DNA of 64,000 nt. It comes from Cyrtodaria siliqua (lineage: Eukaryota; Mollusca; Bivalvia; Adapedonta; Hiatellidae). The stretch covers positions 1 through 64,000 of the forward strand of contig JAWPHD010002628.1 in NCBI GenBank assembly GCA_037043455.1. Reading direction: 5' to 3'. Both the position numbers and the translations under genes were made by a program. Below are positions 12,644 through 45,620 of this stretch, one piece after another. A model generated the notes under the pieces. That model had not been told where the DNA came from. It saw only the letters and a program-made list of their open reading frames with translations, and did no database searches. How positions within the stretch are numbered: the first letter of the stretch is position 1; every line of letters starts with the position of its first letter.

Positions 12644-12808
12644 CTATGGAATTATCACATGTTGTTCTGAATGACCAAAGTCATTTCTAGCCGTGCACGT
12701 CCAGGTACCATCATGGTATGCGGCAGAATATCCAGACTGAGTTACCATCATGCGAAGATTATCTGCTGAGAACTCCACATCAATGGGAATTCCAATGGAG
12801 CCGTCGGT
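12644..12808 (-). CDS. LU-Ig gene exon 10: second half of Ig domain 2, stop
   Basis: Acceptor TTATTTACTAG opens 54 codons and a TAG stop. The exon starts TDGSIGIPIDVEF and ends in the hallmark Ig strand-F motif DGTWTCTARNDFG, then SEQHVIIP. The D-G-x-W-x-C spacing with A-x-N-x-x-G is typical of I-set Ig domains. It enters in phase 0, matching exon 9. The stop directly after strand G means no transmembrane or cytoplasmic part. I see no perfect AATAAA within the 100 bp before the satellite begins, so the 3' UTR may run into the 26-bp array. Confidence 0.78.
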   Translation of the reverse strand, partial: TDGSIGIPIDVEFSADNLRMMVTQSGYSAAYHDGTWTCTARNDFGHSEQHVIIP

Positions 12809-12814
12809 CTAGTA

Positions 12815-13302
12815 AATAATAATAATGTATCTTAAACTTTTCTACAGTCCAGATGTCACGTGATTTGGCCATTCGATTTTGAATAGGATACTAGTACTTA
12901 ATATTTAATGTCCCCATTAACATATGTTATGCCCATAATAGTTGTTAATGGGTAAAGCCATTAATATTTGGAAATTAACTCTGCCATTTTAATGGGTTAA
13001 ATTCATGGCAAATTAATAACAGTTTAATGAATACGTTTACTTAATGGGAGCTATTCATGTGAGCTATTCATGGAATGTTAATGGGTTGCTGTTGTATTAG
13101 TGTAATCAGCAATCAAGCATAACTGTTCCAAGTGTAATCTTATCGGACTAAATGTCACCGTTTTATTTTGTGGTTCTCTGTTTCATGACGGGCCATTAAG
13201 GAATATTACAACATTAGCGTACGATCTTTAATTTAAATTTACTGAGTGAACAATATTACTTTAACTGTGTGGTACTGAGTATTGATTTTTATATAAATAC
13301 TG
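12815..13302. other. Intron sequence with repeated TTAATGGG words
   Basis: Part of the intron between exons 9 and 10. Between about 12905 and 13090 the words TTAATG, AATGGG and ATTCATG recur at irregular spacing, which may be a decayed tandem repeat. Nothing else seen. Confidence 0.4.
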
Positions 13303-13380
13303 AAAATGGGATCCTTTGGAAGATGCTTCAAACAAGAGAAAAGTAGCAGACTCGGTTTTATTGAGTCTGTTCATGAGAAG
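13303..13380 (-). mobile_element. Module A, copy 3
   Basis: Reverse orientation: GCAGACTCGG and TTGAGTCTG arms with a TTTTATT loop, preceded by ACAAGAGAAAAGTA and GGATCCTTTGGAAG. Confidence 0.85.
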
Positions 13381-14500
13381 TAATATTATGTGCGGTATTT
13401 TACTTTGAAGCCACAAAGACTGTAATACACGTACTTAAGAATCACGTGCATAATTGTTTCCATTCAGGTACTGTATGTGTACTTTCACCCACACTTCACA
13501 TGTACATTATACAATTTGATTTATTTGAGTTGTATAGAAATAACTTCAATGAAAGTGACAAGTACGGGCTTGTAAGCAAACGTTTAGGACTCACAACACT
13601 ATTATCTCCCTTGAATACTCCTGCCCTACAGATGAATAGGTAGATGAAAAAAAACAAGTTCGCTTTTCTATATTTTAAGGATACATTGATTTATCTTTAC
13701 CAGGTTCTAAATCTACAGCATTTTAGGAAGAGATCACAGAAAAATGCATGTTGATATAAGATTTCTAGCTAATTCTGCCTCATTTTACACATCATAGGTC
13801 TAATCTCCAAGGGGTTGTATTTTTGTTTAAATTTTGAAAGGTGTCACGCAAACATGAAATTAAAAAAAGTTCAATCTGGTAAATATGTGTTAAAAGTTAA
13901 TTACAGGCAGATATTGGATCAATGAAGAATTTAAGCTTAAATACATGTTGCAAAATCTTTTTTATCTCTATGACACGAACAAAAACATTACAATGGGACC
14001 CTATGGAAAATTTATTGTGGTGTGAGACGTTAATCGCCAGTGCTAACATGTACATTGTCAGTACGTATTCCCGACTACAATTCTTCATATGTTTTGCCAA
14101 TCGGTAACCATGTATTCAATAGTATTTATGTTGAATATGGTCCTGTTCATTAACGACCTTTTAATTTGCTCATCTGATATACTTTGCGATACAGTTTGGA
14201 CCTACAGTCCATTGCATTCGGTGCCATGGTTTATATAAGACTATTTTTCTCATCTTGGCTTGGACTCATCCATATTATATATTCATTGAATGCTTATGTG
14301 ATGTGGCCGTGTTAAATTAGATAAGGATTAGACATGTACCATGCAATCACAGGCTAGAAAGAGATAAATAGTAGCTGAACCTCTGGCGTTGATTTATCAA
14401 GGCAAGTTTAATATATTATTAGATAAACACTTTCTAAGTCAACGGCTGGCCAAACTTACTTCGTTGTAATTTACAACGGCAAAAACGGTGCCAAAGTCAA
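13381..14500. other. Intron sequence, no recognised features
   Basis: AT-rich remainder of the exon 9 to 10 intron. Short frames on both strands (13446, 13897, 13922) lack domains or splice context. Confidence 0.4.
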
Positions 14501-14527
14501 ACCAGTTACTACACATAATGTACTTAC

Positions 14528-14652
14528 GGGTAGGAAGCCCCATTTTATGGCAGGTTTAGGGTAGCCAATTACCATGCAAGAAATGGAGAAAATGTCACCT
14601 GAATGCAGTGTGCCGTGGGGATCCCTAATGACAGAAACAACTGTAGCGGGTG
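14528..14652 (-). CDS. LU-Ig gene exon 9: first half of Ig domain 2
   Basis: Acceptor TTTTATTTCAG and donor GTAAGTAC bound 125 bases: 2 bases completing a Thr codon plus 41 codons. The exon reads PATVVSVIRDPHGTLHSGD, then FSISCMVIGYPKPAIKWGF. The strand-B Cys (SISC), the G-x-P-x-P phrase and the strand-C Trp (IKW) are the standard first half of an I-set Ig domain. It enters in phase 1 and leaves in phase 0, the same cut as in Ig1. Confidence 0.8.
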
Positions 14653-14820
14653 CTGAAATAAAATATGTTACCATAACTGAACAGGAAATGTCGTATTTAG
14701 AGAACGCAGTCAACCATAAACACGCTTTCAAAGCAAACAACAAGCACAAAAAATAAAAATAAACAAGTATATGCCACCACATACATAAACGGTGAGACAA
14801 TATAGTTGAAATAAAGAGCA

Positions 14821-14940
14821 CGTGACACATGATTATATAAAGAGGACGTGATATATGATTATATAAAGAGGACGTGACATTTGATTATGTAAAGAGGACG
14901 TGAAATATGTTTATATAAAGATGACGTGACATATGACTAT
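14821..14940. repeat. Short 26-bp tandem repeat
   Basis: Four diverging copies of GATTATATAAAGAGGACGTG plus ATATAT or ACATTT, in the intron between exons 8 and 9. Confidence 0.85.
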
Positions 14941-15177
14941 CAATTTGGTGATAAATCGGCTTGGACGCTTGTTTTTTTTAAATAAAAAGGTCTAGAAGCT
15001 TTGATCTAAATAGTTTGTTATCGAAATACTTGTATCGTTCCTGATTGGATGACACAGACGAAACGAAAAATGACAGTGCACTATTTCATAAATTAATAAC
15101 TAAAGAAAGAGAAACAAATATTTATTATATCAACTAAACGTGGATGGTCAAACATGCCTTAATAAAACAATATTTAA

Positions 15178-15282
15178 TTAATACTGTAAAGGTGATCCCT
15201 TGGAAGGAACACACACAAACAAAAGAGAAAAGTGCAACACCTCTCACGACTCCTGGCGCCGTCTTAAACGGTATTTTTTTTT
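15178..15282 (-). mobile_element. Module A, copy 4, internally deleted
   Basis: The ends of module A are present (GATCCCTTGGAAG and ACAAAAGAGAAAAGT on one side, GCAACACCTCTCACG on the other). The segment with the CAGACTC hairpin and one arm of the first hairpin is missing, so neither hairpin can form. Confidence 0.65.
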
Positions 15283-15374
15283 TCGGCGCAAAGGATCTAT
15301 AACTTAAATTTTGTATTTAAAATCGAGCATCGAGCAAACCTTAACAACTGCAAATAATAGACTGAACGTCTTAC

Positions 15375-15537
15375 TTGGCTGTATGTGGACTGTCAAGGAG
15401 GATTGAGCTGTCTGACCATTGTAGGCCAAGGCCATGCAACTATATGTTCCCATATTGCTTTCCGTCAAATGTGCTATAGAAAGGATAGATATTTCTCCAT
15501 TCCCTTGGTATGTGACACCTGCAGGAAGCCCTTGGTG
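15375..15537 (-). CDS. LU-Ig gene exon 8: second half of Ig domain 1
   Basis: Acceptor TTAAATTCCAG and donor GTAAGACG bound 163 bases, 54 codons plus 1 base. It begins HQGLPAGVTYQGNGE, continues ISILSIAHLTESNMGTYSCM (strands E-F with the conserved Y-x-C) and ends SSLTVHIQP. The leftover A joins CA of exon 9 to give Thr. It enters in phase 0, in frame with exon 7. The 12.5-kb intron upstream contains the 54-bp satellite. Confidence 0.82.
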
Positions 15538-16867: not shown

Positions 16868-19800
16868 TTTAACATTGTTGTTGTTTCTATGCGTGGTTTT
16901 GGTTGAATGTGGTTCTTGAATGCTACATTGTTGTTTGTTTCTATGCGTGGTTTAGGCTGAATGTGGTTATTGACTGCTACATTGTTGTTTGTTTCTATGC
17001 GTGGTTTTGGTTGAATGTGGTTCTTGAATGCTACATTGTTGTTTGTTTCTATGCGTGGTTTTGGTTGAATGTTGTTCTTGAATGCTACAATGTTGTTTGT
17101 TTCAATGCGTGGTTTTGGTTGAATGTGGTTCTTGAAAGCCAAATTGTTATTTGTTTCTATGCGTGGTTTTGGTTGCATGTGGTTCTTGAATGCTACAATG
17201 TTATTTGTTTCTATGCGTGGTTTTGGTTGAATGTGGTTCTTGAAAGCCAAATTGTTATTTGTTTCTATGCGTGGTTTTGATTGAATGTGGTTCTTGAACG
17301 CTACATTGTTGTTTGTTTCTACGCGTGGTTTTCGTTGAATGTGGTTATTGAATGCTACATTGTTGTTGTTTCTATGCGTGGTTTTGATTGAATGTGGTTC
17401 TTGAATGCTAAATTGTTTTTTGTTTCTATGCGTGGTTTTGGTTGAACGTGATTATTGAATGCTACATTGTTATTTGTTTCTATGCGTGGTTTTGGTTGAA
17501 TGTGGTTATTGAATGCTACATTGTTGTTGTTTTCTATGCGTCGTTTTGGTTGAACGTGGTTATTGAATGCTACATTGTTATTTGTTTCTATGTGTGGTTT
17601 TGGTTGAATGTGGTTATTGAATGCTACATTGTTGTTTATTTCTATGCGTGGTTTTCGTTGAATGTAGTTCTTGAATGCTACATTGTTGTTTGTTTCTATG
17701 CGTGGTTTTCGTTGAATATGGTTCTTGACTGCTACATTGTTGTTTGTTTCTATGCGTGGTTTTGGTTGAATATGGTTCTTGACTGCTACATTGTTGTTTG
17801 TTTCTATGCGTGGTTTAGCCTGAATGTGGTTCTTGAATGCTACATTGTTGTTTGTTTCTATGCGTGGTTTTGGTTGAATGTGGTTCTTGAAAGCCAAATT
17901 GTTATTTGTTTCTATGCGTGGTTTTGATTGAATGTGGTTCTTGAATGCTACATTGTTGTTTGTTTCTATGTGTGGTTTAGGCTGAATGTGGTTCTTGAAT
18001 GCTACATTGTTGTTTGTTTCTATGCGTGGTTTTCGTTGAACGTGGTTATTGAATGCTACATTGTTGTTTGTTTCTATGCGTGGTTTAGGCTGAATGTGGT
18101 TATTGACTGCTACATTGTTGTTTGTTTCTATGCGTGGTTTTGGTTGAATGTGGTTCTTGAATGCTACATTGTTGTTTGTTTCTATGCGTGGTTTTGGTTG
18201 AATGTTGTTCTTGAATGCTACAATGTTGTTTGTTTCAATGCGTGGTTTTGGTTGAATGTGGTTCTTGAAAGCCAAATTGTTATTTGTTTCTATGCGTGGT
18301 TTTGGTTGCATGTGGTTCTTGAATGCTACATTGTTATTTGTTTCTATGCGTGGTTTTGGTTGAATGTGGTTCTTGAAAGCCAAATTGTTATTTGTTTCTA
18401 TGCGTGGTTTTGATTGAATGTGGTTCTTGAACGCTACATTGTTGTTTGTTTCTACGCGTGGTTTTCGTTGAATGTGGTTATTGAATGCTACATTGTTGTT
18501 GTTTCTATGCGTGGTTTTGATTGAATGTGGTTCTTGAATGCTAAATTGTTTTTTGTTTCTATGCGTGGTTTTGGTTGAACGTGATTATTGAATGCTACAT
18601 TGTTATTTGTTTCTATGCGTGGTTTTGGTTGAATGTGGTTATTGAATGCTACATTGTTGTTGTTTTCTATGCGTCGTTTTGGTTGAACGTGGTTATTGAA
18701 TGCTACATTGTTATTTGTTTCTATGTGTGGTTTTGGTTGAATGTGGTTATTGAATGCTACATTGTTGTTTATTTCTATGCGTGGTTTTCGTTGAATGTAG
18801 TTCTTGAATGCTACATTGTTGTTTGTTTCTATGCGTGGTTTTCGTTGAATATGGTTCTTGACTGCTACATTGTTGTTTGTTTCTATGCGTGGTTTTGGTT
18901 GAATATGGTTCTTGACTGCTACATTGTTGTTTGTTTCTATGCGTGGTTTAGGCTGAATGTGGTTCTTGAATGCTACATTGTTGTTTGTTTCTATGCGTGG
19001 TTTTGGTTGAATGTGGTTCTTGAAAGCCAAATTGTTATTTGTTTCTATGCGTGGTTTTGATTGAATGTGGTTCTTGAATGCTACATTGTTGTTTGTTTCT
19101 ATGTGTGGTTTAGGCTGAATGTGGTTCTTGAATGCTACATTGTTGTTTGTTTCTATGCGTGGTTTTCGTTGAACGTGGTTATTGAATGCTACATTGTTGT
19201 TTGTTTCTATGCGTGGTTTAGGCTGAATGTGGTTATTGACTGCTACATTGTTGTTTGTTTCTATGCGTGGTTTTGGTTGAATGTGGTTCTTGAATGCTAC
19301 ATTGTTGTTTGTTTCTATGCGTGGTTTTGGTTGAATGTTGTTCTTGAATGCTACAATGTTGTTTGTTTCAATGCGTGGTTTTGGTTGAATGTGGTTCTTG
19401 AAAGCCAAATTGTTATTTGTTTCTATGCGTGGTTTTGGTTGCATGTGGTTCTTGAATGCTACATTGTTATTTGTTTCTATGCGTGGTTTTGGTTGAATGT
19501 GGTTCTTGAAAGCCAAATTGTTATTTGTTTCTATGCGTGGTTTTGATTGAATGTGGTTCTTGAACGCTACATTGTTGTTTGTTTCTACGCGTGGTTTTCG
19601 TTGAATGTGGTTATTGAATGCTACATTGTTGTTGTTTCTATGCGTGGTTTTGATTGAATGTGGTTCTTGAATGCTAAATTTTTTTTGTTTCTATGCGTGG
19701 TTTTGGTTGAACGTGATTATTGAATGCTACATTGTTATTTGTTTCTATGCGTGGTTTTGGTTGAATGTGGTTATTGAATGCTACATTGTTGTTTTTTTCT

Positions 19801-22800
19801 ATGCGTGGTTTTGGTTGAACGTGGTTATTGAATGCTACATTGTTATTTGTTTCTATGTGTGGTTTTGGTTGAATGTGGTTATTGAATGCTACATTGTTGT
19901 TTATTTCTATGCGTGGTTTTCGTTGAATGTGGTTCTTGAATGCTACATTGTTGTTTGTTTCTATGCGTGGTTTTCGTTGAATATGGTTCTTGACTGCTAC
20001 ATTGTTGTTTGTTTCTATGCGTGGTTTTGGTTGAATATGGTTCTTTACTGCTACATTGTTGTTTGTTTCTATGCGTGGTTTAGGCTGAATGTGGTTCTTG
20101 AATGCTACATTGTTGTTTGTTTCTATGCGTGGTTTAGGCTGAATGTGGTTCTTGACTGCTACATTGTTGTTTATTTCTATGCGTGGTTTTCGTTGAATAT
20201 GGTTCTTGAATGCTACATTGTTGTTTATTTCTATGCGTGGTTTTCGTTGAATGTGGTTCTTCAATGCTACATTGTTGTTTATTTCTATGCGTGGTTTTCG
20301 TTGAATATGGTTCTTGAATGCTACATTGTTGTTGTTTCTATGCGTGGTTTTCGTTGAATGTGGTGCTTGAATGCTACATTGTTGTTTATTTCTATGCGTG
20401 GTTTAGGCTGAATGTGGTTATTGACTGCTACATTGTTGTTTGTTTCTATGCGTGGTTTTCGTTGAATGTGGTTCTTGAATGCTACATTGTTGTTTGTTTC
20501 TATGCGTGGTTTTCGTTGAATGTGGTTATTGACTGCTACATTGTTGTTTGTTTCTATGCGTGGTTTTCGTTGAATGTGGTTCTTGAATGCTACATTGTTG
20601 TTTATTTCTATGCGTGGTTTAGGCTGAATGTGGTTATTGACTGCTACATTGTTGTTTATTTTTATGCGTGGTTTTCGTTGAATATGGTTCTTGACTGCTA
20701 CATTGTTGTTTGTTTCTATGCGTGGTTTTGGTTGAATATGGTTCTTGAATGCTACATTGTTGTTTGTTTCTATGCGTGGTTTTGGTTGAATATGGTTCTT
20801 GAATGCTACATTGTTGTTGTTTCTATGCGTGGTTTTCCTTGAATGTGGTTCTTGAATGCTACATTGTTGTTTATTTCTATGCGTGGTTTAGGCTGAATGT
20901 GGTTATTGACTGCTACATTTTTGTTTATTTCTATGCGTGGTTTTGGTTGAATATGGTTCTTGACTGCTACATTGTTGTTTGTTTCTATGCGTGGTTTTGG
21001 TTGAATATGGTTCTTGAATGCTACATTGTTGTTTATTTCTATGCGTGGTTTAGGCTGAATGTGGTTATTGACTGCTACATTGTTGTTTATTTCTATGCGT
21101 GGTTTTCGTTGAATGTGGTTCTTGAATGCTACATTGTTGTTTATTTCTATGCGTGGTTTTCGTTGAATGTGGTTCTTGAATGCTACATTGTTGTTTGTTT
21201 CTATGCGTGGTTTTCGTTGAATGTGGTTATTGAATGCTACATTGTTGTTTGTTTCTATCCGTGGTTTTGGTTGAATATGGTTCTTGAATGCTACATTGTT
21301 GTTTATTTCTATGCGTGGTTTAGGCTGAATATGGTTATTGAATGCTACATTGTTGTTTGTTTCTATGCGTGGTTTAGGCTGAATGTGGTTATTGACTGCT
21401 ACATTGTTGTTTGTTTCTATGCGTGGTTTTGGTTGAATATGGTTCTTGACTGCTACATTGTTGTTTGTTTCTATGCGTGGTTTTCGTTGAATGTGGTTCT
21501 TGAATGCTACATTGTTGTTTGTTTCTATGCGTGGTTTAGGCTGAATGTGGTTATTGACTGCTACATTGTTGTTTATTTCTATGCGTGGTTTTCGTTGAAT
21601 ATGGTTCTTGAATGCTACATTGTTGTTTATTTCTATGCGTGGTTTTCGTTGAATGTGGTTCTTGACTGCTACATTGTTGTTTGTTTCTATGCGTGGTTTT
21701 GGTTGAATGTGGTTCTTGAATGCTACATTGTTGTTTATTTCTATGCGTGGTTTAGGCTGAATGTGGTTATTGACTGCTACATTGTTGTTTGTTTCTATGC
21801 GTGGTTTTCGTTGAATGTGGTTATTGACTGCTACATTGTTGTTTGTTTCTATGCGTGGTTTTCGTTGAATGTGGTTCTTGAATGCTAAATTGTTGTTTAT
21901 TTCTATGCGTGGTTTAGGCTGAATGTGGTTATTGACTGCTACATTGTTGTTTATTTCTATGCGTGGTTTTCGTTGAATGTGGTTCTTGAATGCTACATTG
22001 TTGTTTGTTTCTATGCGTGGTTTTGGTTGAATATGGTTCTTGAATGCTACATTGTTGTTTGTTTCTATGCGTGGTTTTGGTTGAATATGGTTCTTGAATG
22101 CTACATTGTTGTTTATTTCTATGCGTGGTTTAGGCTGAATGTGGTTATTGACTGCTACATTGTTGTTTATTTCTATGCGTGGTTTTCGTTGAATGTGGTT
22201 CTTGAATGCTACATTGTTGTTTGTTTCTATGCGTGTGTTTGGTTGAATGTGGTTATTGAATGCTACATTGTTGTTTGTTTCAATGCGTGGTTTAGGCTGA
22301 ATGTGGTTATTGACTGCTACATTGTTGTTTGTTTCTATGCGTGTTTTTGGTTGAATGTGGTTATTGAATGCTACATTGTTGTTTGTTTCTATGCGTGCTT
22401 TTCGTTGAATGTGGTTCTTGAATGCTACATTGTTGTTTATTTCTATGCGTGGTTTTGGTTGAATGTGGTTATTGAATGCTACATTGTTGTTTGTTTCTAT
22501 GCGTGGTTTTCGTTGAATGTGGTTCTTGAATGCTACATTGTTGTTTATTTCTATGCGTGGTTTTCGTTGAATGTGGTTCTTGACTGCTACAGTGTTGTTT
22601 GTTTCTATGCGTGGTTTAGGCTGAATGTGGTTATTGAATGCTACATTGTTGTTTATTTCTATGCGTGGTTTTCGTTGAATGTGGTTCTTGACTGCTACAT
22701 TGTTGTTTGTTACTATGCGTGGTTTAGGCTGAATGTGGTTATTGACTGCTACATTGTTGTTTATTTCTATGCGTGGTTTAGGCTGAATGCGGTTATTGAC

Positions 22801-25800
22801 TGCTACATTGTTGTTTATTTCTATGCGTGGTTTAGGCTAAATGTGGTTATTGACTGCTACAGTGTTGTTTATTTCTATGCGTGGTTTAGGCTGAATGCGG
22901 TTATTGACTGCTACATTGTTGTTTATTTCTATGCGTGGTTTAGGCTGAATGTGGTTATTGACTGCTACAGTGTTGTTTGTTTCTATGCGTGGTTTAGGCT
23001 GAATGTGGTTATTGACTGCTACATTGTTGTTTGTTTCTATGCGTGGTTTAGGCTGAATGTGGTTATTGAATGCTACAGTGTTGTTTATTTCTATGCGTGG
23101 TTTAGGCTGAATGTGGTTATTGACTGCTACATTTTTGTTTGTTTCTATGCGTGGTTTAGGCTGAATGTGGTTATTGACTGCTACAGTGTTGTTTATTTCT
23201 ATGCGTGGTTTAGGCTGAATGTGGTTATTGACTGCTACATTGTTGTTTGTTTCTATGCGTGGTTTAGGCTGAATGTGGTTATTGACTGCTACAGTGTTGT
23301 TTGTTTCTATGCGTGGTTTAGGCTGAATGTGGTTATTGACTGCTACATTGTTGTTTATTTCTATGCGTGGTTTAGGCTGAATGTGGTTATTGACTGCTAC
23401 AGTGTTGTTTGATTCTATGCGTGGTTTAGGCTGAATGTGGTTATTGACTGCTACATTTTTGTTTGTTTCTATGCGTGGTTTAGGCTGAATGTGGTTATTG
23501 ACTGCTACAGTGTTGTTTGTTTCTATGCGTGGTTTAGGCTGAATGTGGTTATTGACTGCTACAGTGTTGTTTGTTTCTATGCGTGGTTTAGGCTGAATGT
23601 GGTTATTGACTGCTACATTGTTGTTTGTTTCTTTGCGTGGTTTAGGCTGTATGTGGTTATTGAATGCTACATTGTTGTTTATTTCTATGCGTGGTTTAGG
23701 CTGAATGTGGTTATTGACTGCTACAGTGTTGTTTGTCTCTATGCGTGGTTTAGGCTGAATGTGGTTATTGACTGCTACATTGTTGTTTGTCTTTATGCGT
23801 GGTTTAGGCTGAATGTGGTTATTGACTGCTACATTGTTGTTTGTTTCTATGCGTGGTTTAGGCTGAATGTGGTTATTGAATGCTACATTGTTGTTTGTTT
23901 CTATGCGTGGTTTTCGTTGAATGTGGTTCTTGACTGCTACATTGTTGTTTGTTTCTATGCGTGTTTTTGGTTGAATGTAGTTATTGACTGCTACATTGTA
24001 GTTTGTCTTTATGCGTGGTTTAGGCTGAATGTGGTTATTGACTGCTACATTGTTGTTTATTTCTATGCGTGGTTTAGGCTGAATGTGGTTATTGACTGCT
24101 ACATTGTTGTTTGTTTCTATGCGTGCTTTAGGCTGAATGTGGTTATTGAAGCTACATTGTTGTTTGTTTCTATGCGTGGTTTTCGTTGAATGTGGTTCTT
24201 GACTGCTACATTGTTGTTTGTTTCTATGCGTGTTTTTGGTTGAATGTAGTTATTGACTGCTACATTGTTGTTTGTCTTTATGCCTGGTTTAGGCTGAATG
24301 TGGTTATTGACTGCTACATTGTTGTTTATTTCTATGCGTGGTTTAGGCTGAATGTGGTTATTGACTGCTACATTGTTGTTTATTTCTATGCGTGGTTTAG
24401 GCTGAATGTGGTTATTGACTGCTACAGTGTTGTTTATTTCTATGCGTGGTTTAGGCTGAATGTGGTTATTGACTGCTACATTGTTGTTTGTTTCTATGCG
24501 TGGTTTAGGCTGAATGTGGTTATTGACTGCTACATTGTTGTTTGTTTCTATGCGTGGTTTAGGCTGAATGTGGTTATTGAATGCTACAGTTTTGTTTATT
24601 TCTATGTTTGGTTTAGGCTGAATGTGGTTATTGACTGCTACATTTTTGTTTGTTTCTATGCGTGGTTTAGGCTGAATGTGGTTATTGAATGCTACATTGT
24701 TGTTTGTTTCTATGCGTGGTTTTCGTTGAATGTGGTTCTTGACTGCTACATTGTTGTTTGTTTCTATGCGTGTTTTTGGTTGAATGTAGTTATTGACTGC
24801 TACATTGTTGTTTGTCTTTATGCGTGGTTTAGGCTGAATGTGGTTATTGACTGCTACATTGTTGTTTATTTCTATGCGTGGTTTAGGCTGAATGTGGTTA
24901 TTGACTGCTACATTGTTGTTTGTTTCTATGCGTGGTTTAGGCTGAATGTGGTTATTGAATGCTACATTGTTGTTTGTTTCTATGCGTGGTTTTCGTTGAA
25001 TGTGGTTCTTGACTGCTACATTGTTGTTTGTTTCTATGCGTGTTTTTGGTTGAATGTAGTTATTGACTGCTACATTGTTGTTTGTCTTTATGCGTGGTTT
25101 AGGCTGAATGTGGTTATTGACTGCTACATTGTTGTTTATTTCTATGCGTGGTTTAGGCTGAATGTGGTTATTGACTGCTACAGTGTTGTTTGTTTATATG
25201 CGTGGTTTAGGCTGAATGTGGTTATTGACTGCTACATTGTTGTTTATTTCTATGCGTGGGTTAGGCTGAATGTGGTTATTGAATGCTTCATTGTTGTTTA
25301 TTTCTATGCGTGGTTTAGGCTGAATGTGGTTATTGACTGCTACAGTGTTGTTTGTTTCTATGCGTGGTTTAGGCTGAATGTGTTATTGACTGCTACATTG
25401 TTGTTTGTTTCTATGCGTGGTTTAGGCTGAATGTGGTTATTGACTGCTACATTGTTGTTTGTTTCTATGCGTGGTTTAGGCTGTTTGTGGTTATTGACTG
25501 CTACAGTGTTGTTTATTTCTATGCGTGGTTAAGGCTGAATGTGGTTATTGACTGCTACAGTGTTGTTTGTTTCTATGCGTGGTTTAGGCTGAATGTGGTT
25601 ATTGACTGCTACATTGTTGTTTGTTTCTATGCGTGGTTTAGGCTGAATGTGGTTATTGACTGCTACATTGTTGTTTGTTTCTATGCGTGGTTTAGGCTGA
25701 ATGTGGTTATTGAATGCTACAGTGTTGTTTATTTCTATGCGTGGTTTAGGCTGAATTTGGTTATTGACTGCTACATTTTTGTTTGTTTCTATGCGTGGTT

Positions 25801-26748
25801 TAGGCTGAATGTGGTTATTGACTGCTACAGTGTTGTTTATTTCTATGCGTGGTTTAGGCTGAATGTGGTTATTGACTGCTACATTGTTGTTTGTTTCTAT
25901 GCGTGGTTTAGGCTGAATGTGGTTATTGACTGCTACAGTGTTGTTTGTTTCTATGCGTGGTTTAGGCTGAATGTGGTTATTGACTGCTACATTGTTGTTT
26001 GTTTCTATGCGTGGTTTAGGCTGTATGTGGTTATTGAATGCTACATTGTTGTTTATTTCTATGCGTGGTTTAGGCTGAATGTGGTTATTGACTGCTACAG
26101 TGTTGTTTGTTTCTATGCGTGGTTTAGGCTGAATGTGGTTATTGACTGCTACATTGTTGTTTGTTTCTATGCGTGGTTTAGGCTGAATGTGTCTCTTGAA
26201 TGCTACATTGTTGTTTGTTTCTATGCGTGGTTTTGGTTGAATGTGGTTATTGACTGCTACATTGTTGTTTGTTTCTATGCGTGGTTTAGGCTGAATGTGG
26301 TTATTGACTGCTACAGTGTTGTTTATTTCTATGCGTGGTTTAGGCTGAATGTGGTTATTGACTGCTACAGTGTTGTTTGTTTCTATGCGTGGTTTAGGCT
26401 GAATGTGGTTATTGACTGCTACATTGTTGTTTGTTTCTATGCGTGGTTTAGGCTGAATGTGGTTATTGACTGCTACATTGTTGTTTGTTTCTATGCGTGG
26501 TTTAGGCTGAATGTGGTTATTGACTGCTACATTGTTGTTTGTTTCTATGCGTGGTTTAGGCTGAATGTGGTTATTGACTGCTACATTGTTGTTTGTTTCT
26601 ATGCGTGGTTTAGGCTGAATGTGGTTATTGAATGCTACATTGTTGTTTGTTTCTATGCGTGGTTTTGGTTGAATGTGGTTATTGACTGCTACATTGTTGT
26701 TTGTTTCTATGCGTGGTTTTGGTTGCATGTGGTTCTTGACTGCTACAT
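16868..26748. repeat. 54-bp satellite array, about 183 units
   Basis: Units of 54 bp built from TGCTACATTGTTGTTTGTTT, CTATGCGTGGTTT and either TGGTTGAATGTGG or AGGCTGAATGTGG, then TTCTTGAA or TTATTGAC. From 17355 to about 19620 a higher-order unit of 1,133 bp (21 monomers less one base) is repeated nearly identically. From about 22.6 kb onward the AGGCTGAA / TTATTGAC type dominates. Because 54 is divisible by 3 and the unit lacks stops in several frames, both strands read open for hundreds of codons (hydrophobic on plus; Lys/Pro/Asn-rich on minus). No start, splice or other gene context supports translation. It lies in the intron between exons 7 and 8. Confidence 0.97.
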
Positions 26749-28064: not shown

Positions 28065-28240
28065 CCCGTTAAAAGTCCAGATCAGCCGGTCCACAGTTCC
28101 AGTCACGTGACAAGTAAGTTGAAGGCTAGCGTAGTACACAGCCGAATTATGGCCGTTTATTACAGGAATCGGTGCTGGTTTGGGTGTTGTTGTCGTCGGC
28201 AGTGTCGTCGTCGGGGTCGTACTTGGGGCGTGCGTGTTGT
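28065..28240 (-). CDS. LU-Ig gene exon 7: mucin-like stalk and first half of Ig domain 1
   Basis: Acceptor TATTTCAATTAAG and donor GTACATTC bound 176 bases: 2 bases completing a His codon plus 58 codons. After THAPS comes the Thr/Pro stalk PTTTLPTTTTPKP, a likely O-glycosylation region. The Ig half follows: APIPVINGHNSAVYYASLQL, TCHVTGTV and LIWTFNG, with strand-B Cys and strand-C Trp 14 residues apart. It enters in phase 1 and leaves in phase 0 into exon 8. The opposite strand of the stalk reads as a Gly/Val-rich pseudo-membrane segment, which is an antisense shadow. The stalk is encoded by ACG/ACA/CCG-rich simple sequence, so its length may vary between alleles. Confidence 0.82.
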
Positions 28241-28370: not shown

Positions 28371-28634
28371 CATTACGTGGTTCCGCCTTAATTCCAATAA
28401 GTGATGGGAAAGCTTATAAAAGGCAAAAGTCTATAACGGATATTTCGACAATAAAACACGCTTAAAATCATATTTTACTGAAAAAATGAGATAACCTGTT
28501 TAAAATTACCTATTTTACAATATGCAGAGTATTAAAACCGAAATTAAGGTTTTATTTCATACCCCAGCCAACCCCGTTTTCGCTTCTTGGAGAAGGGGAT
28601 AGGGTATGAAAGTTAATACTTGGACCACGTAATG
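28371..28634 (+). mobile_element. MITE family E, copy 3 (cleanest)
   Basis: 264 bp bounded by CATTACGTGGT and ACCACGTAATG, a perfect 11-bp TIR. Interior words TTTCGACAATAAAACACG and CCGAAATTAAGGTTTTATTT are shared with the other copies. In the intron between exons 6 and 7. Confidence 0.85.
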
Positions 28635-29247: not shown

Positions 29248-29350
29248 GGGTCCAGCCGTCACAGACATCAAAGTTGCAGTAATTTGAATTATTACAACAC
29301 TTGTTGCACAGCGTGGATGTAGCAGATAATCGTTCAAAAGCTTCGCACGT
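29248..29350 (-). CDS. LU-Ig gene exon 6: C-terminal third of LU domain 2
   Basis: Acceptor TTTTTCTTTTGAAG and donor GTAAGTTA bound 103 bases, 34 codons plus 1 base. The exon reads TCEAFERLSATSTLCNKCC then NNSNYCNFDVCDGWT. CC-x4-CN is the signature that closes a Ly6/uPAR domain, and NNS is a possible N-glycosylation site. It enters in phase 0 after exon 5 and leaves in phase 1 into the stalk exon. The phase pattern equals that of exon 3, its counterpart in LU domain 1. Confidence 0.85.
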
Positions 29351-30300: not shown

Positions 30301-30363
30301 CAGTTTAGGCATACACTTCAAGCTGTAACCAGACAGTGTCGGTGACATGTATACTGCACACAT
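30301..30363 (-). CDS. LU-Ig gene exon 5: middle third of LU domain 2
   Basis: Acceptor TTTCATTTATAG and donor GTAAGAAT bound exactly 21 codons (phase 0 to 0): MCAVYMSPTLSGYSLKCMPK plus L. It matches the layout of exon 2 (C-x-V, a polar loop, Y/F-S-L-x-C-M), the central finger of the domain. The short size makes it weak alone, but phase, position and pattern all agree with exons 4 and 6. The internal ATG at its start is not a translation start in this model. Confidence 0.72.
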
Positions 30364-34126: not shown

Positions 34127-37100
34127 ATAGTCATGTACATGAAGGATAACAGCTGATAGCAGATCTCAAATATACATCCATCCATGGTCATGTACATGCA
34201 GGATAACTGCTGATAGCAGATCTCGAATATACATCCATCCATGGTCATTTACATGCAGGATAACTGCTGATAGCAGATCTCAAATATACATCCATCCATG
34301 GTCATGTACATGCAGGACAACTGCTGATAGCAGATCTCGAATATACATCCATCCATGGTCATTTACATGCAGGATAACAGCTGATAGCAGATCTCAAATA
34401 TACATCCATCCATGGTCATGTACATGCAGGACAACTGCTGATAGCAGATCTCGAATATACATCCATCCATGGTCATTTACATGCAGGATAACTGCTGATA
34501 GCAGATCTCAAATATATATCCATCCATGGTCATTTACATGCAGGATAACTGCTGATAGCAGATCTCACATATACATCCATCCATGGTCATTTACATGCAG
34601 GATAACTGCTGATAGCAGATCTCAAATATATATCCATCCATGGTCATTTACATGCAGGATAACTGCTGATAGCAGATCTCACATATACATCCATCCATGG
34701 TCATTTACATGCAGGATAACTGCTGATATCAGATCTCACATATACATCCATCCATGGTCATTTACATGCAGGATAACTGCTGATAGCATATCTCACTTAT
34801 ACATCCATCCATGGTCATTTACATGCAGGATAACTGCTGATAGCATATCTCACATATACATCCATCCATGGTCATTTACATGCAGGATAACTGCTGATAG
34901 CATATCTCACATATACATCCATCCATGGTCATTTACATGCAGGATAACTGCTGATAGCAGATCTCACATATACATCCATCCATGGTCATTTACATGCAGG
35001 ATAACTGCTGATAGCATATCTCACATATACATCCATCCATGGTCATTTACATGCAGGATAACTGCTGATAGCAGATCTCGAATATACATCCATCCATGGT
35101 CATTTACATGCAGGATAACTGCTGATAGCAGATCTCGAATATACATCCATCCATGGTCATTTACATGCAGGATAACTGCTGATAGCAGATCTCAAATATA
35201 CATCCATCCATGGTCATTTACATGCAGGATAACTGCTAATAGCAGATCTCAAATATACATCCATCCATGGTCATTTACATGCAGGATAACTGCTGATAGC
35301 AGATCTCAAATATACATCCATCCATGGTCATTTACATGCAGGATAACTGCTGATAGCAGATCTCACATATACATCCATCCATGGTCATTTAATTGCAGGA
35401 TAACTGCTGATAGCAGATCTCACATATACATCCATCCATGGTCATTTACATGCAGGATAACTGCTGATAGCATATCTCACATATACATCCATCCATGGTC
35501 ATGTACATGCAGGATAACTGCTGATAGCATATCTCACATATACATCCATCCATGGTCATTTACATGCAGGATAACTGCTGATAGCATATCTCACATATAC
35601 ATCCATCCATGGTCATTTACATGCAGGATAACTGCTGATAGCAGATCTCACATATACATCCATCCATGGTCATTTACATGCAGGATAACTGCTGATAGCA
35701 TATCTCACATATACATCCATCCATGGTCATTTACATGCAGGATAACTGCTGATAGCAGATCTCGAATATACATCCATCCATGGTCATTTACATGCAGGAT
35801 AACTGCTGATAGCAGATCTCGAATATACATCCATCCATGGTCATTTACATGCAGGATAACTGCTGATAGCAGATCTCGAATATACATCCATCCATGGTCA
35901 TTTACATGCAGGATAACTGCTGATAGCAGATCTCGAATATACATCCATCCATGGTCATTTACATGCAGGATAACTGCTGATAGCAGATCTCGAATATACA
36001 TCCATCCATGGTCATTTACATGCAGGATAACTGCTGAAAGCAGATCTCGAATATACATCCATCTATGGTCATTTACATGCAGGATAACTGCTGATAGCAG
36101 ATCTCGAATATACATCCATCCATGGTCATTTACATGCAGGATAACTGCTGATAGCAGATCTCGAATATACATCCATCCATGGTCATTTACATGCAGGATA
36201 ACTGCTGATAGCAGATCTCGAATATACATCCATCCATGGTCATTTACATGCAGGATAACTGCTGATAGCAGATCTCAAATATACATCCATCCATGGTCAT
36301 TTACATGCAGGATAACTGCTGATAGCAGATCTCAAATATACATCCATCCACGGTCATTTACATGCAGGATAACTGCTGATAGCAGATCTCAAATATACAT
36401 CCATCCATGGTCATTTACATGCAGGATAACTGCTGATAGCAGATCTCGAATATACATCCATCCATGGTCATTTACATGCAGGATAACTGCTGATAGCAGA
36501 TCTCGAATATACATCCATCCATGGTCATTTACATGCAGGATAATTGCTGATAGCAGATCTCAAATATACATCCATCCATGGTCATTTACATGCAGGATAA
36601 CTGCTGATAGCAGATCTCAAATATACATCCATCCATGGTCATTAACATGCAGGATAACTGCTGATAGCAGATCTCAAATATACATCCATCCATGGTCATT
36701 TACATGCAGGATAACTGCTGATAGCAGATCTCAAATATACATCCATCCATGGTCATTTACATGCAGGATAACTGCTGATAGCAGATCTCAAATATACATC
36801 CATCCATGGTCATTTACATGCAGGATAACTGCTGATAGCAGATCTCAAATATACATCCATCCATGGTCATTTACATGCAGGATAACTGCTGATAGCAGAT
36901 CTCAAATATACATCCATCCATGGTCATTTACATGCAGGATAATTGCTGATAGCAGATCTCAAATATACATCCATCCATGGTCATTTACATGCAGGATAAC
37001 TGCTGATAGCAGATCTCGAATATACATCCATCCATGGTCATTTACATGCAGGATAACTGCTGATAGCAGATCTCAAATATACATCCATCCATGGTCATTT

Positions 37101-38236
37101 ACATGCAGGATAACTGCTGATAGCAGATCTCAAATATACATCCATCCATGGTCATTTACATGCAGGATAACTGCTGATAGCAGATCTCAAATATACATCC
37201 ATCCATGGTCATTTACATGCAGGATAACTGCTGATAGCAGATCTAAAATATACATCCATCCATGGTCATTTACATGCAGGATAACTGCTGATAGCAGATC
37301 TCAAATATACATCCATCCATGGTCATTTACATGCAGGATAACTGCTGATAGCAGATCTCAAATATACATCCATCCATGGTCATTTACATGCAGGATAACT
37401 GCTGATAGCAGATCTCGAATATACATCCATCCATGGTCATTTACATGCAGGATAACTGCTGATAGCAGATCTCAAATATACATCCATCCATGGTCATTTA
37501 CATGCAGGATAACTGCTGATAGCAGATCTCGAATATACATCCATCCATGGTCATTTACATGCAGGATAACTGCTGATAGCAGATCTCAAATATACATCCA
37601 TCCATGGTCATTTACATGCAGGATAACTGCTGATAGCAGATCTCAAATATACATCCATCCATGGTCATTTACATGCAGGATAACTGCTGATAGCAGATCA
37701 CGAATATACATCCATCCATGGTCATTTACATGCAGGATAACTGCTGATAGCAGATCTCAAATATACATCCATCCATGGTCATTTACATGCAGGATAACTG
37801 CTAATAGCAGATCTCAAATATACATCCATCCATGGTCATTTACATGCAGGATAACTGCTGATAGCAGATCTCAAATATACATCCATCCATGGTCATTTAC
37901 ATGCAGGATAACTGCTGATAGCAGATCTCAAATATACATCCATCCATGGTCATTTACATGCAGGATAACTGCTGATAGCAGATCTCAAATATACATCCAT
38001 CCATGGTCATTTACATGCAGGATAACTGCTGATAGCAGATCTCAACTATACATCCATCCATGGTCATTTACATGCAGGATAACTGCTGATAGCAGATCTC
38101 GAATATACATCCATCCATGGTCATTTACATGCAGGATAACTGCTGATAGCAGATCTCAAATATACATCCATCCATGGTCATTTACATGCAGGATAACTGC
38201 TGATAGCAGATCTCAAATATACATCATTCCGTGGTA
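34127..38236. repeat. 57-bp satellite array, ~72 units
   Basis: Units made of GGTCATTTACATGCAGGATA, ACTGCTGATAGCAGATCTC and a variable AAATATA, GAATATA or ACATATA, then CATCCATCCAT. Every unit carries CTGCTgatAGCAG, a short hairpin, beside an AGATCT palindrome. Variants are clustered: ACATATA with GCATATC in the left third, GAATATA around 35.8-36.2 kb, AAATATA elsewhere. The GAATATA type leaves the minus strand open (19-residue period), while the AAATATA type gives a TGA, so no long protein is encoded. It lies in the intron between exons 3 and 4. Confidence 0.97.
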
Positions 38237-40289: not shown

Positions 40290-40494
40290 ATGCTTGGGAG
40301 AACGATTTACACGGTCCCTTGTTACAGCCTGGTTGGCTGCAGCACTCGACGCACGTGACACCTATATTGGTATCACGCTTCACATGTAGTAGACTCTGCG
40401 AGTAGTCACGTTTTATTGGATTCCACCCAATGTCCGCCGTTCTCCCTCGCTTGCCGATTAGAGACCCGTAAGGAAACTGAGAATGGGCACACGA
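40290..40494 (-). CDS. LU-Ig gene exon 3: C-terminal third of LU domain 1
   Basis: Acceptor TACTTTGTTTACAG and donor GTATGTTT bound 205 bases, 68 codons plus 1 base. It starts SCAHSQFPYGSL, has a long basic middle (GKRGR, IKRDYSQ, HVKRD) and closes with GVTCVECCSQPGCNKGPC, the CC-x4-CN signature of Ly6/uPAR domains. It enters in phase 0 and leaves in phase 1, exactly like exon 6. The insert before the last Cys block makes this finger about twice the size of its LU2 counterpart. The region is more GC-rich than its surroundings. The frame runs on to a TAA 12 bases past the donor, so a shorter secreted one-LU isoform by intron retention is possible. Confidence 0.82.
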
Positions 40495-41317: not shown

Positions 41318-41380
41318 TACGAATTGTTGTTTTATATTCATCTATACATGATAATATTTGTGTTGAACGTATATTGCCTA

Positions 41381-41605: not shown

Positions 41606-41631
41606 CATGCGTCATACTGAATAAGCATTCG

Positions 41632-43036
41632 TCTGTGGTGTGTGTTGTGAAGTGTGGTGTGTGTTGACGTGTGATGTGTGATGACGTGTGGTGTGCGGTG
41701 GAGTATGGTGTGTGTTGGAGTGTGGTGTTTGTTGAAATGAGGTGTGTGCTGGCGTGTGATGTGTGCTGACGTGTGGTGTGTGTTGACGTGTGGTATATGT
41801 TGAAGTGTGGTGTGTGTTGACGCGTGGTGTGTGTCGAAACATGGTGTGTGTTGACCTGAGGTGTATGTTGACGTGTGGTGTGTGTTGAAGTAAAGTGTGT
41901 GTTGACTGTGGTGTATGTTGACGTGTGGTGTGTGTTGACGTGTAGTGTGTGTTGAAGTGAAGTATGTGTTGACGTTAGGTATGTCTTGACGTGTGGTGTA
42001 TGTCGAAGTTTAGTGTGTGTTGAAGTGTGGTGTGTTTTGAAGTGTAGTGTGTGTTGACGTGTGGTGTGTGTTGACTGTGATGTGTGTTGAAATGGGATGT
42101 GTGTTGACGTTTGTTGTGTGTTGATGTGTGTTGTATGTTGAAGTGTGGTGTGGTGTGTTAAAGTGTGGTATGTGTTGACGTGTGGTGTGTGTTGAAATGT
42201 GATGTGTGTTGAAGTGTGGTGTGTGTTGACGTGTGGTGTGTGTTGAAGTGAAGTGTGTGTTGACGTGGTGTGTTGACGTGTGGTGTGTGTTGAAGAGTGG
42301 TGTGTGTTGACGTGTTGTATGTGTTGACGACTGGTGTGTGTCGAAGTATGGTGTGTGTTGACGTGTGGTGTATGTTGACGTGTGGTGTGTGTGGATGTGT
42401 GGTGTGGTGTGTGTCGAAGTGTGGTGTGTGTTGAAGTGTGGAGTGTGTTTGACGTGTGGTGTGTGTTGAAGTGTGGTGTGTATTGAAGTGTGATGTGTTG
42501 AAGTATGTGTGATGACGTGTGGTTTGTGTTGAAGTGTAGTGTGTGTGTTGAAGTGTGGTGTGTGTTGACGTGTGGTGTGTGTTGAAAAAGTGGTGTGTGT
42601 TGGCGTGCGGTGTGTGTCGATGTGTGGTGTGTGGTGACGTGTGGTGTGTGTTAAAGTGTGGTTTGTGTTGCGGTGTGTTGTATGTTGAAGTGTGTTGTTT
42701 TTTGAGGTGTGTTGAATGTTGAAGTGTAGTATGTGTTGAAGTGTGATGTATCTTGGAGTTTAATGTGTGATTATTGGTGGTGTGTGTTGAAGTTGGTGTG
42801 TGTTGATGTGTGTTGTATGTTGAAATGTGGTGTTTGTTGAGGTGTGTTGTATGTTAAAGTGTGGTGTGTGTTGAAGTGTGGTGTGTGTTGAAGTTTGATG
42901 TGTGTTGAAGTTGGTGTGTGACGAAGTTTTGTGTTTTGAAGTGTGGTTTGTGTTGAAGTCTGATGTGTATTGAAGGGTGGTGTGTGTTGAAGTGTGGTGT
43001 GTGTTGAAGTGTGGTGTTTGTTGAAGTGTCTGTGAT
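41632..43036. repeat. 17-bp minisatellite array, ~80 units
   Basis: Unit GTGTGGTGTGTGTTGAC or ending GAA, with many substitutions and indels. The T/G versus A/C strand asymmetry is extreme, so it may form G-rich secondary structure. Located in the intron between exons 2 and 3. Confidence 0.95.
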
Positions 43037-43472
43037 AATGTTAAATGGAGTATATCAGAATTAGTGTGTTTTTTTCAGAAATGTTCACAGTATTATTGTA
43101 TAAATTGATAAGTATAACCTTAATGAGACATAACCTACCATAAGAATTGAAACACTGAACATGTAAAGACCCGAAGAAGGTATTTCCTTCGGCTTGAAAT
43201 TTATTTATATGAATTTATGGCTTAATAATACTTTTGGAAATGTGTAACTATTTGTTACAGTAACTAAGCGTTATTATAGGAGACTGTCAAACTAGTGTTC
43301 TTTCTATATGTTTGAATAATTTCAAGATTTACATTGGTCATTTCATAGCTTTTTATTGTTTTTTTAACAAATTTAGCCACACATCATGACGTACCCTTAT
43401 TGAATTTAATTTGAGCTGTCACTTTTTAAAAACAAATGTTAAGGGAGTTAAGATCATGAAAACAACACATAC
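43037..43472. other. Intron sequence, no recognised features
   Basis: AT-rich sequence between the 17-bp array and exon 2. Confidence 0.4.
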
Positions 43473-43544
43473 GGTGGCGTCCATACAGCCCAGTGAAAAA
43501 TAGTCAGTTAAGTTGTGAGCTAGATGCCGCCTTACGTAACACTC
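43473..43544 (-). CDS. LU-Ig gene exon 2: middle third of LU domain 1
   Basis: Acceptor CTTCTTTTCAG and donor GTATGTGT bound exactly 24 codons, phase 0 to 0: ECYVRRHLAHNLTDYFSLGC then MDAT. C-Y-V, the NLT glycosylation sequon and the F-x-L-G-C end are typical of the central finger of mollusc LU-type domains as I know them. The pattern parallels exon 5 (MCAVY...GYSLKCM). Confidence 0.82.
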
Positions 43545-43668
43545 CTGAAAAGAAGGTAAATTTATTGAAAACTGAAAGTTAAAACAATGTAACAAACTAA
43601 ACACATCACAGGCTTAACTGATCAAATTACACATTCATCTATATGTGCATAAAATGCACAACTTTGAT

Positions 43669-43853
43669 CTTTTGGGATCATCAATCCCGATCATTTGGCT
43701 TTAAAGTAGAGTATCACTTAAGCCGCTGCTAGAAGGCGTGAGAGGTATTTCACTTTATGTTACCTCTTATGAACAGACTCGATGCAACCGAGTCTGCTAC
43801 ATTTATCGTGTTTGTGTTTGTTACTTCCAACGGATCCGTTGTTCAGTATTTAT
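43669..43853 (+). mobile_element. Module A, copy 8
   Basis: Full module. Hairpin 2 CAGACTCGATGCAACCGAGTCTG is perfect in its stem although the loop differs; hairpin 1 has one G-T wobble. Ends TTGTTCAGTATTTATTAC. Confidence 0.85.
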
Positions 43854-44089
43854 TACATTTCTATGGGTGAAAGATCGGGATTTCTCAGTGCAAGAATATT
43901 CATAATCTCTAAATATTAATAACTAACTCAGAACACACTAATAACTAACGTTGCTAACTTAGAACACAATAATAACTAACGTTGCGACGTTGAGTCGTGA
44001 CGTCAACAAAGTGTTGCTGACGTCGACGTCATCCGCCGATAACGTTCAATAAAGCGAATATTTGTTTGCAAAAACGTAATTTAAAATGT
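43854..44089. other. Intron sequence with GACGTC cluster
   Basis: AACTAACGTTGC-type words are duplicated near 43920-43985, then TGACGTCGACGTCAT near 44013, the same core as in elements D1 and D2. Probably another element fragment. Confidence 0.4.
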
Positions 44090-44265
44090 AATAAATAGAT
44101 TACTTAACTGCTGGGATCGATTATTGGGTAATCCTTCACTTGATGGTAGACGTGATTTGTTTTTTCACTCACTCGCGTGCGGTCGTTCGTGAAAAGAACC
44201 ACACATCTACCACTCGTGAAGGATTTCCCTATAATCAATCCAAGCAGTTAAATAACCTATTTATT
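44090..44265. repeat. Foldback element, ~175 bp
   Basis: GGTAATCCTTCACTTGATGG and its partner with CCACTCGTGAAGGATTTCCC, plus AATAAATAG with CTATTTATT at the outer ends. The loop is rich in CACTCGCGTGCGG. Confidence 0.85.
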
Positions 44266-45537
44266 GAACTATTAGCTTACAGTTTATGTCCAGTGGTATG
44301 GGTCTACATTTTTCCTACCATTTATTTGTTTAATATTGATACTGCAAATACTAATTATAACATATATATACCTTTAAAAGATTGAATATTCATTTCAATA
44401 GTTAATACGCTGAAATTCAATTTATGTTTTTTATAATAAATATGTCGCATTATATTTACAAAGGCTGCGGTGCCACACATATATATGAACGTTTGATCTT
44501 TTTATAATGGGACAATTTTAGTTTTATATTAGATCCCATGGCTTTGTCCATAATACACGAGTATAAAGATTTAAAATGTATAATTTTTACTTAGATATTA
44601 ATACAATTGTATCATTATATGATATTGTGATTAATATTACAGAGAGATACCTTTCCAAAAACCTCAATCTGTTAATGTTTTGTTAACGTTTATGCTATTA
44701 GTGTCTAATATCTCCAGATATTATTGTAATTTGCCATGTAAAAGGATCCCATTGGAAATAAGCCAAACTATATTTAGGTAAATAAAGATATTTGTATTAT
44801 TTCAATATAGTTAACACGTTTAAATAATATATTCTCTCTTGCTAGTGACTATATGATATACTTTCACTTTCAAGCCTTTTGTGATATTTAAATCTGTGGT
44901 ATAAGAAGCATTGTGATAATATGTGGTACATGTAATGTGATATCATCTTGACGATTTATGCTTATTATAAAACTGTGATTATTGTACCTAATATATATAT
45001 ATGTATCTTGAGCCTGAAATAAAATGAAATGAAATGAAGTGAGATAAACATACTGATTGATTGTCATTTTGCACAAAGGATAAGCAATTATATAAATCGA
45101 ATTACTCTTTGAATTATATAAAACATCTGGGGCTGCCTGTATAACAGTACAAACAATACCCTAAGGCTTAAGAAGAAAAACAGAACAATACTTTATTACA
45201 TTTCTATCGGGGAAGGATAAGTTTTCTAGATGAAATATAAATCATAATCACTAAATATTAATAAAACTGTATTAATGGCAAAACATTAATTCATTCATAT
45301 TCACTAACCGCAACAATAAATATGTTCAACTTCCTATTTTGGTCAAACTGATAAATTAAAATATATTTGTCGATATTTTCAAAACACGAAGAACCTCCTT
45401 ATTCTGTAAAACAATACAACCATCTACTAGCACTTATATATGTGGTCTCTTGGGCATGTTTAATTGTATACAATCGTATAATGATATGATACAGCTATAG
45501 TTTATGATACAGCTATAGTTTAACAAAGAGATATTAC
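44266..45537. other. Intron sequence, no recognised features
   Basis: AT-rich remainder of the intron between exons 1 and 2. TTATTACATTTCTAT near 45193 repeats the end of module A copy 8, suggesting an A-related fragment. Nothing else supported. Confidence 0.4.
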
Positions 45538-45620
45538 CTGGTTGGGATAGCATGATTTCGTGTGATGACAATCGTCAGGGTGGGCAACAGCTGGACAGTC
45601 GAAGCATAAGGTTGAATCGA
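45538..45620 (-). CDS. LU-Ig gene exon 1 (first found): N-terminal third of LU domain 1
   Basis: Donor GTAATATC after CCAACCAG and an acceptor-like ATTTTGCCATTAG bound 83 bases, 2 bases plus 27 codons: DSTLCFDCPAVAHPDDC then HHTKSCYPNQ. L-C-x2-C is the standard opening of a Ly6/uPAR domain. It leaves in phase 0 to exon 2. Upstream of the acceptor the frame stays open for about 29 further codons with hydrophobic content (VFYVIHVAVYTSLILPL) but no ATG, so it could be either a partial signal peptide or intron. I prefer a separate upstream signal-peptide exon joining in phase 1. That exon is not identified. Confidence 0.78.

Follow-up and report, generated by a model that had tools for sequence, protein, structure and literature searches.

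The first 64 kb of contig JAWPHD010002628.1 (here C2628; 248,286 bases) from the 2.88 Gb genome of the bivalve Cyrtodaria siliqua, which we refer to as the window, hold on the minus strand a gene whose exons span some 33 kb and whose predicted product carries two LU (Ly6/uPAR) domains followed by a stalk and two immunoglobulin (Ig) domains. We report the exon structure of this gene (the focal gene), its paralogues (A, B and C) and the relation of its product to known LU and Ig proteins, and we propose a function for the predicted protein.

Exon structure of the focal gene

A preliminary description of the window had proposed ten exons with GT-AG borders, nine junctions of agreeing phase and about 410 open residues, and our reading of the exons bears this out. 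Every border is of the GT-AG type, 9/9 junctions are phase-compatible, and the joined frame, which runs from 45620 to 12644, comprises 403 codons with no internal stop and closes with a stop codon at 12644-12646. The upstream edge of the gene had been set at 45620; the frame from that position holds, but exon 1 probably begins at 45686. Both acceptors lie in phase 1 (that at 45620 gives an exon of 45620-45538), and the preferred one, which includes the signal-peptide part of exon 1, brings the product to 425 residues. The entry phases of exons 1 to 10 read 1-0-0-1-0-0-1-0-1-0, with phase 1 at all domain borders and phase 0 at all splits within a domain. The exons, and one weak candidate for a further exon, are the following.

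45538..45686, minus strand: exon 1, hydrophobic core of a putative signal peptide and opening third of LU1 (TLCFDC...CYPNQ); matched in the protein P0001 (see below) and, in A, by 101696-101563
43473..43544, minus strand: exon 2, middle of LU1 (ECYVRR...GCMDAT), phase 0/0
40311..40494, minus strand: exon 3, end of LU1 with a third-finger insertion (GKR, IKR, VKR), then CVECCSQPGCN; phase 0 in, 1 out; long form also in A exon 3, B and P0001
33747..33826, minus strand: exon 4, start of LU2, phase 1/0
30301..30363, minus strand: exon 5, middle of LU2, phase 0/0
29248..29350, minus strand: exon 6, end of LU2 (CNKCCNNSNYCNFDVC), phase 0/1
28065..28240, minus strand: exon 7, Thr/Pro stalk and first half of Ig1, phase 1/0
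15375..15537, minus strand: exon 8, second half of Ig1, phase 0/1
14528..14652, minus strand: exon 9, first half of Ig2, phase 1/0
12644..12808, minus strand: exon 10, second half of Ig2 and stop codon (12644-12646); matching end in A, B, C and P0001
53869..53884, minus strand: weak, unconfirmed candidate start exon (MSMAN or MAN, phase 1), with the top donor score of 13 rows between 45690 and 74300

Paralogues and selection

A search of the genome with the 403-residue focal protein returned 27 matches at an expectation value (E) of up to 1, comprising the ten focal exons, five places at 74-87 kb of C2628 (A), five on C10488 (B), four on C16357 (C) and three weak matches (C3199, E 0.004; C5392, 0.78; C970, 0.99). 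With A as the query, 47 matches reached E 1 or better; among them were weak LU-like matches on further contigs (best 8.5e-4), as would be expected if this genome has many LU genes. All such counts are lower bounds. The LU-like exon on C970 (L046 1441-1587) is split at the first of the two points used in the focal LU domains, by eye with phase 1 in and 0 out, while that on C3199 (L042 1456-1653) has no split there.

Paralogue A is a tandem copy lying 29 kb upstream (C2628:101696-74379), with ten GT-AG exons in the same phases, 449 codons without a stop and a stop codon at the position equivalent to that of the focal gene. Eight of the ten exons differ in length between the two copies, and 10/10 differences are multiples of three. 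The Nei-Gojobori ratio of non-synonymous to synonymous substitution (dN/dS) between the focal gene and A comes to 0.31 (409 codons), or 0.30 when the alignment is made on the joined sequences (412 codons), a rough figure since dS, at 1.6, is near saturation. The corresponding ratios are 0.29 for the focal gene and B (313 codons) and 0.42 for A and B (347 codons). The constraint extends to the LU exons as well as to the Ig exons. Because A shares the ten exons and their phases, differs in length only by multiples of three and gives a dN/dS of this order, the exon model is more than chance. Identity between the focal protein and A rises along the molecule, from 32/105 residues in LU1 (30%) through 41/81 in LU2 and 49/92 in Ig1 to 54/95 in Ig2 (57%).

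In B, seven of the ten exons (3, 4, 6, 7, 8, 9 and 10) could be read, in the order and phases of the focal gene; exons 1, 2 and 5 were not found, and for exon 5 a search by pattern across 25.6-37.4 kb yielded a single, unconvincing row. The third LU1 exon of B (L050, C10488:38826-39004) reads YC in place of CC, one cysteine of the pair having been lost. Copy C comprises Ig exons only, of which exons 8-10 were read and exon 7 was found by search alone, and no LU end motif occurs within its first 10 kb. It is a near copy of B (3/59 residues differ in exon 10) and may be an allele of it.

One gene or two

A profile built from the focal protein and A found, in the protein database, a further relative of 426 residues, P0001 (E 1.6e-100, 40% identity over 95% of A). 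This unnamed protein, with the source label 'lgn', is read from a frame that takes up about 1280 of the 1320 bases of its contig and contains in that one frame a signal-peptide-like start, LU1, LU2, a stalk, Ig1, Ig2 and the corresponding end. It shares with the focal protein the complete order of domains, the GKR and KR sites discussed below and the C-terminus, but at 42% identity in alignment it represents another gene, probably from another species. P0001 is most likely derived from complementary DNA (cDNA), because a frame of this length on a contig of this length cannot stem from a gene split over 33 kb.

The joining of LU and Ig domains in one protein, as first proposed for this locus, is backed both by the paralogues and by this uninterrupted frame. 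The alternative is that two adjoining genes, one LU-LU and one Ig-Ig, were misjoined in the first reading and have been duplicated as a block. LU domains do occur mostly alone or with their own kind (PMC6600238, in the portion consulted), and the LU-Ig intron is long in A (8.2 kb) and in B (9.4 kb), each with four rows of ATG-led hydrophobic candidates for a signal peptide, densities (0.49 and 0.42 per kb) that slightly exceed the background value of 0.31; seven of these eight rows carry, by eye, one repeated string. Against this stand the single frame of P0001, the phase-1 donor and acceptor that are kept at the LU-Ig junction in the focal gene, A and B, and the focal junction intron itself. 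The latter measures 1006 bases and has no signal-peptide exon candidate. It showed no conserved exon among the matches listed by tblastn, whose low E-values fall in a repeat, and exons 6 and 7, used as controls, were recovered by that comparison (9e-9 and 4e-13). The repeat, at 28371-28634, accounts for the sole strong DNA match of the intron to A (E 5e-53); it is interspersed and also lies at several other places on C2628. The comparison supports one predicted gene rather than two, with P0001 decisive, and the two-gene explanation is very unlikely.

LU domains, stalk and Ig domains

The preliminary description gave both LU domains the ending CC-x4-CN, which is correct for LU1; LU2 ends in CC-x5-CN (CCNNSNYCN). 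The ten LU cysteines and one extra (C-x2-CC, three residues before the CC pair) are invariant in LU1 and LU2 of the focal protein and A, and a further cysteine, in CN-x3-C, is absent only from focal LU1. The totals for LU1 and LU2 are accordingly 11 and 12 in the focal protein and 12 and 12 in both A and P0001. A profile of the four LU domains found two matches in the PDB at E up to 1, both of them LU proteins (PSCA, 0.0093; GPIHBP1, 0.42). Across genomes the UPAR_LY6 profile gave matches in 0/1 own genome and 0/14 control genomes and is uninformative by that yardstick. The LU exon sets are flanked by phase-1 introns, with entry phases of 1-0-0-1-0-0-1 over LU1 and LU2 in both the focal gene and A. 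Each LU domain is spread over three exons, with splits after cysteine 4 and cysteine 6 and none between cysteines 5 and 6. The third-finger loop of LU1 exceeds that of LU2 by 33 residues in the focal protein, 25 in A and 14 in P0001.

The stalk PTTTLPTTTTPKP is present as originally claimed, and threonine, serine and proline make up 71% of its 24 residues (57% of 40 in A and 48% of 42 in P0001). The two Ig domains are likewise borne out, with Pfam scores for the focal protein above the cut-offs in two stretches each (Ig_3, 51.5 bits against 30; I-set, 43.8 against 23.7), and both contain the two cysteines (B-Cys, F-Cys) and the tryptophan (C-Trp). The best PDB sequence matches of the Ig pair are Dscam (E 1.1e-13), MDGA1, contactin 4 and titin.

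Putative signal peptide and probable secretion

Exon 1 contains, after 45686, a hydrophobic stretch (RRFCVFYVIHVAVYTSLILPLVDS) that ends just before LU1, in the same place as the putative signal peptides of A and P0001. A search upstream of 45620 for a signal-peptide exon succeeded in part, in that the hydrophobic core was found and a start codon was not found with confidence: three rows of longer and 13 rows of short hydrophobic candidates were obtained, none of them confirmed. For A, 20 rows of short start-exon candidates were obtained and none was confirmed among the matches listed (9/20); A also has an in-exon ATG at 101715 (MLFLYTGSLLSVLFALCQLILLCEA). By eye, P0001 and A have signal-peptide-like starts, and the focal protein has the core with no located start codon.

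In all four gene copies (focal, A, B and C) Ig2 is followed directly by a stop codon, and the chain of P0001 closes at the equivalent point. The C-termini (HVIIP, DTTIPN, DITIPN, VSVDVP) show by eye no hydrophobic tail of the kind expected for a glycosylphosphatidylinositol (GPI) anchor, and no membrane span was seen. Since A and P0001 have signal-peptide-like starts, no membrane span was seen and five sequences end directly after Ig2, the product of the focal gene is probably secreted; on these grounds the initial proposal of a secreted protein is supported.

Proposed function

We consider it reasonably probable that one gene encodes, in this order, a signal peptide, two LU domains, a Thr/Pro-rich, mucin-like stalk (about 24 residues) and a pair of I-set Ig domains, directly after which the frame stops, and that the product has a bridging role. 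Phase-1 introns at all domain borders suggest that the gene arose by exon shuffling, with duplication taking place afterwards. The protein would act as an extracellular bridge: its LU pair would bind a protein partner, the stalk, presumably O-glycosylated, would keep the LU pair away from the Ig pair, and the Ig pair would bind a second partner or itself. A bridging function is suggested because the protein-binding domains occur as two pairs, one on either side of a mucin-like spacer. Judged from the sequence, recognition or adhesion, be it immune, neural or between gametes, appears the most likely role. The LU head might conceivably set the specificity, because LU1 is the least conserved domain between the focal protein and A; this argument is weak because the order of conservation between A and B is different.

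A number of observations count against this interpretation. The evidence for the focal copy is genomic sequence, and its start codon was looked for and not located. P0001 carries no label that would identify it as cDNA, a status read from the way its frame fills its contig, and its structure model, made from the single sequence, has a mean predicted local distance difference test score of 39.5 and is too poor to use. The LU domains are only weakly matched by existing profiles: in Pfam, focal LU1 scores 17.7 bits with UPAR_LY6 (cut-off 24.8) and LU2 17.9 with Toxin_TOLIP (cut-off 21.2), both below the cut-offs, as is A with UPAR_LY6 (19.2 bits), P0001 alone exceeding it (26.0), and the LU pair of P0001 searched by itself against the PDB gave only a weak match to PSCA (E 0.13). 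Focal LU1 also has one cysteine fewer than its counterparts in A and P0001. The LU domains are not always the fastest part, since between A and B 46/54 residues are kept in exon 3 and only 43/59 in exon 10. To these may be added the near-saturated dS between the focal gene and A and the signal-peptide candidates in the LU-Ig introns of A and B.

Two narrower forms of the bridging proposal are about equally likely, one concerned with neural or gamete adhesion and the other with immune recognition. LU proteins are known to act on nicotinic receptors and in fertilisation. The focal protein could, tentatively, be a secreted modulator of neural or gamete contacts, with its LU pair on a receptor in the manner of Lynx/SLURP or Bouncer and its Ig pair on an adhesion protein; the Ig pair is indeed nearest by sequence to I-set adhesion and muscle proteins, although I-set matches of this kind are generic. 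With a similarly modest likelihood, the protein could be a secreted, opsonin-like immune molecule, in line with the secreted recognition molecule suggested when the locus was first read. Secreted Ig proteins do take part in mollusc immunity (PMC5877582 and PMC9334734, in the portions consulted) and the duplicated genes differ most in LU1, but the copies are few (at least three loci and a near copy of one) and selection on them is on average purifying, not positive. That the gene encodes an immune lectin of the FREP/VIgL type with an overlooked fibrinogen or lectin exon, a likeness raised by the earlier comparison with FREPs and prompted by the tandem Ig domains of a secreted protein (PMC5877582, PMC9334734), is scarcely credible, given the stop directly after Ig2 in all four copies and the equivalent end of P0001, the LU domains at the N-terminus and the absence of any fibrinogen or lectin Pfam match in the focal protein, A and P0001.

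Relation to known proteins

In the portion consulted, PMC6600238 describes tandem LU domains in multi-LU proteins, each exon set flanked by phase-1 introns, with two exons per LU domain as the typical layout, and grants the name 'proto-module' for some exceptions, among them GPIHBP1, SP-10 and TGF-beta receptors. The focal gene shares the tandem arrangement and the phase-1 flanks with uPAR/PLAUR, C4.4A/LYPD3 and the two-LU zebrafish proteins. Such multi-LU proteins are GPI-anchored and split each LU domain once, at the tip of loop 2, whereas the focal protein has a stalk and two Ig domains after its LU pair, no anchor was seen, and each LU domain is divided after cysteines 4 and 6. The mammalian N-terminal LU domain is without the 7-8 disulfide; the cysteines concerned are present in LU1 of the focal protein, A and P0001, while B is without one of the CC pair. 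Gastropod FREP/VIgL proteins are secreted, as the focal protein probably is, with one or two Ig domains, as far as the accounts consulted go, but the focal protein has no fibrinogen, C-type lectin or galectin domain and has two N-terminal LU domains. With Dscam, contactin, NCAM and titin, which include the best sequence matches of its Ig pair, the focal protein has I-set domains in common; it differs from them in having only two Ig domains, no membrane anchor seen and an LU head.

To our knowledge, domain databases contain few if any Ly6-Ig architectures. Searched with the focal protein alone, the protein database gave 1531 candidates, none of them at E 0.01, and missed P0001; this silence is weak evidence of novelty because relatives at about 40% identity are missed. 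No named LU-Ig protein was found in that database (NCBI, UniRef and nr, with animal proteins including turtle NCAM), by a search known to miss relatives, and no title or abstract opening among the matches listed from 5.39 million open papers, on LU/Ly6 with Ig, molluscs or related topics, mentions the combination. The earlier claim of a new combination stands within the reach of these searches, in which no named protein was found; beyond that it is qualified by a leaky protein search and partial coverage of the literature. Within the searches made, the findings support a new combination of known domains under a known modular logic. Here two LU domains bounded cleanly by phase-1 introns have become fused to two Ig domains, and the fusion has been kept under selection in several copies and in one sequence from elsewhere. 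This is direct evidence for the mobility of LU exon sets as modules, and it offers a compact, two-headed, apparently secreted protein whose partners can be sought.

Dibasic sites in the third finger of LU1

The LU1 insertion contains dibasic sites in each of the four sequences in which it was read: GKR, IKR and VKR in the focal protein, GKR and VKR in A and in B, and GKR and SKR in P0001. The motif [NS]QF...GKR, followed by KR with D or N, before the CxxCC block, resembles a prohormone-convertase signature and is kept in the focal protein, A, B and P0001, even though LU1 is the domain in which the focal protein and A differ most. It is conceivable, if rather unlikely, that the focal protein is a convertase-processed precursor whose third finger is cut at GKR and KR. 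If so, the third finger would be nicked, two chains would be held by disulfides and an amidated peptide end could be exposed, giving an LU-Ig protein whose recognition function is activated by proteolytic cleavage; LU proteins of this kind are not mentioned in the literature consulted.

Repeats and other features of the contig

Large minisatellites fill the introns and the 5' side of the focal gene, one of them, of 39 bp x137, lying at 48002-53377 of the window. Those within introns are the following.

16872..26748: minisatellite, 54-bp unit, about 183 copies, within intron 7
34130..38225: minisatellite, 57-bp unit, about 72 copies, within intron 3 (LU1-LU2)
41634..43029: minisatellite, 17-bp unit, about 82 copies, within intron 2

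The 54-bp array has long open frames on both strands, because the unit length is a multiple of three; it was considered as a set of coding repeats and set aside, as the array sits inside intron 7.

Elsewhere on the contig, open frames were assigned by eye. Upstream of A, a long frame on the minus strand (L006, C2628:116878-118017) resembles a voltage-gated potassium channel, with TVGYGD; frames at 129085-130731 and 137932-139365, also on the minus strand, resemble the reverse transcriptases of retroelements; and at about 175-189 kb (L012, L013) lie Polinton/Maverick-like frames of polymerase-, integrase-, ATPase- and capsid-like appearance.

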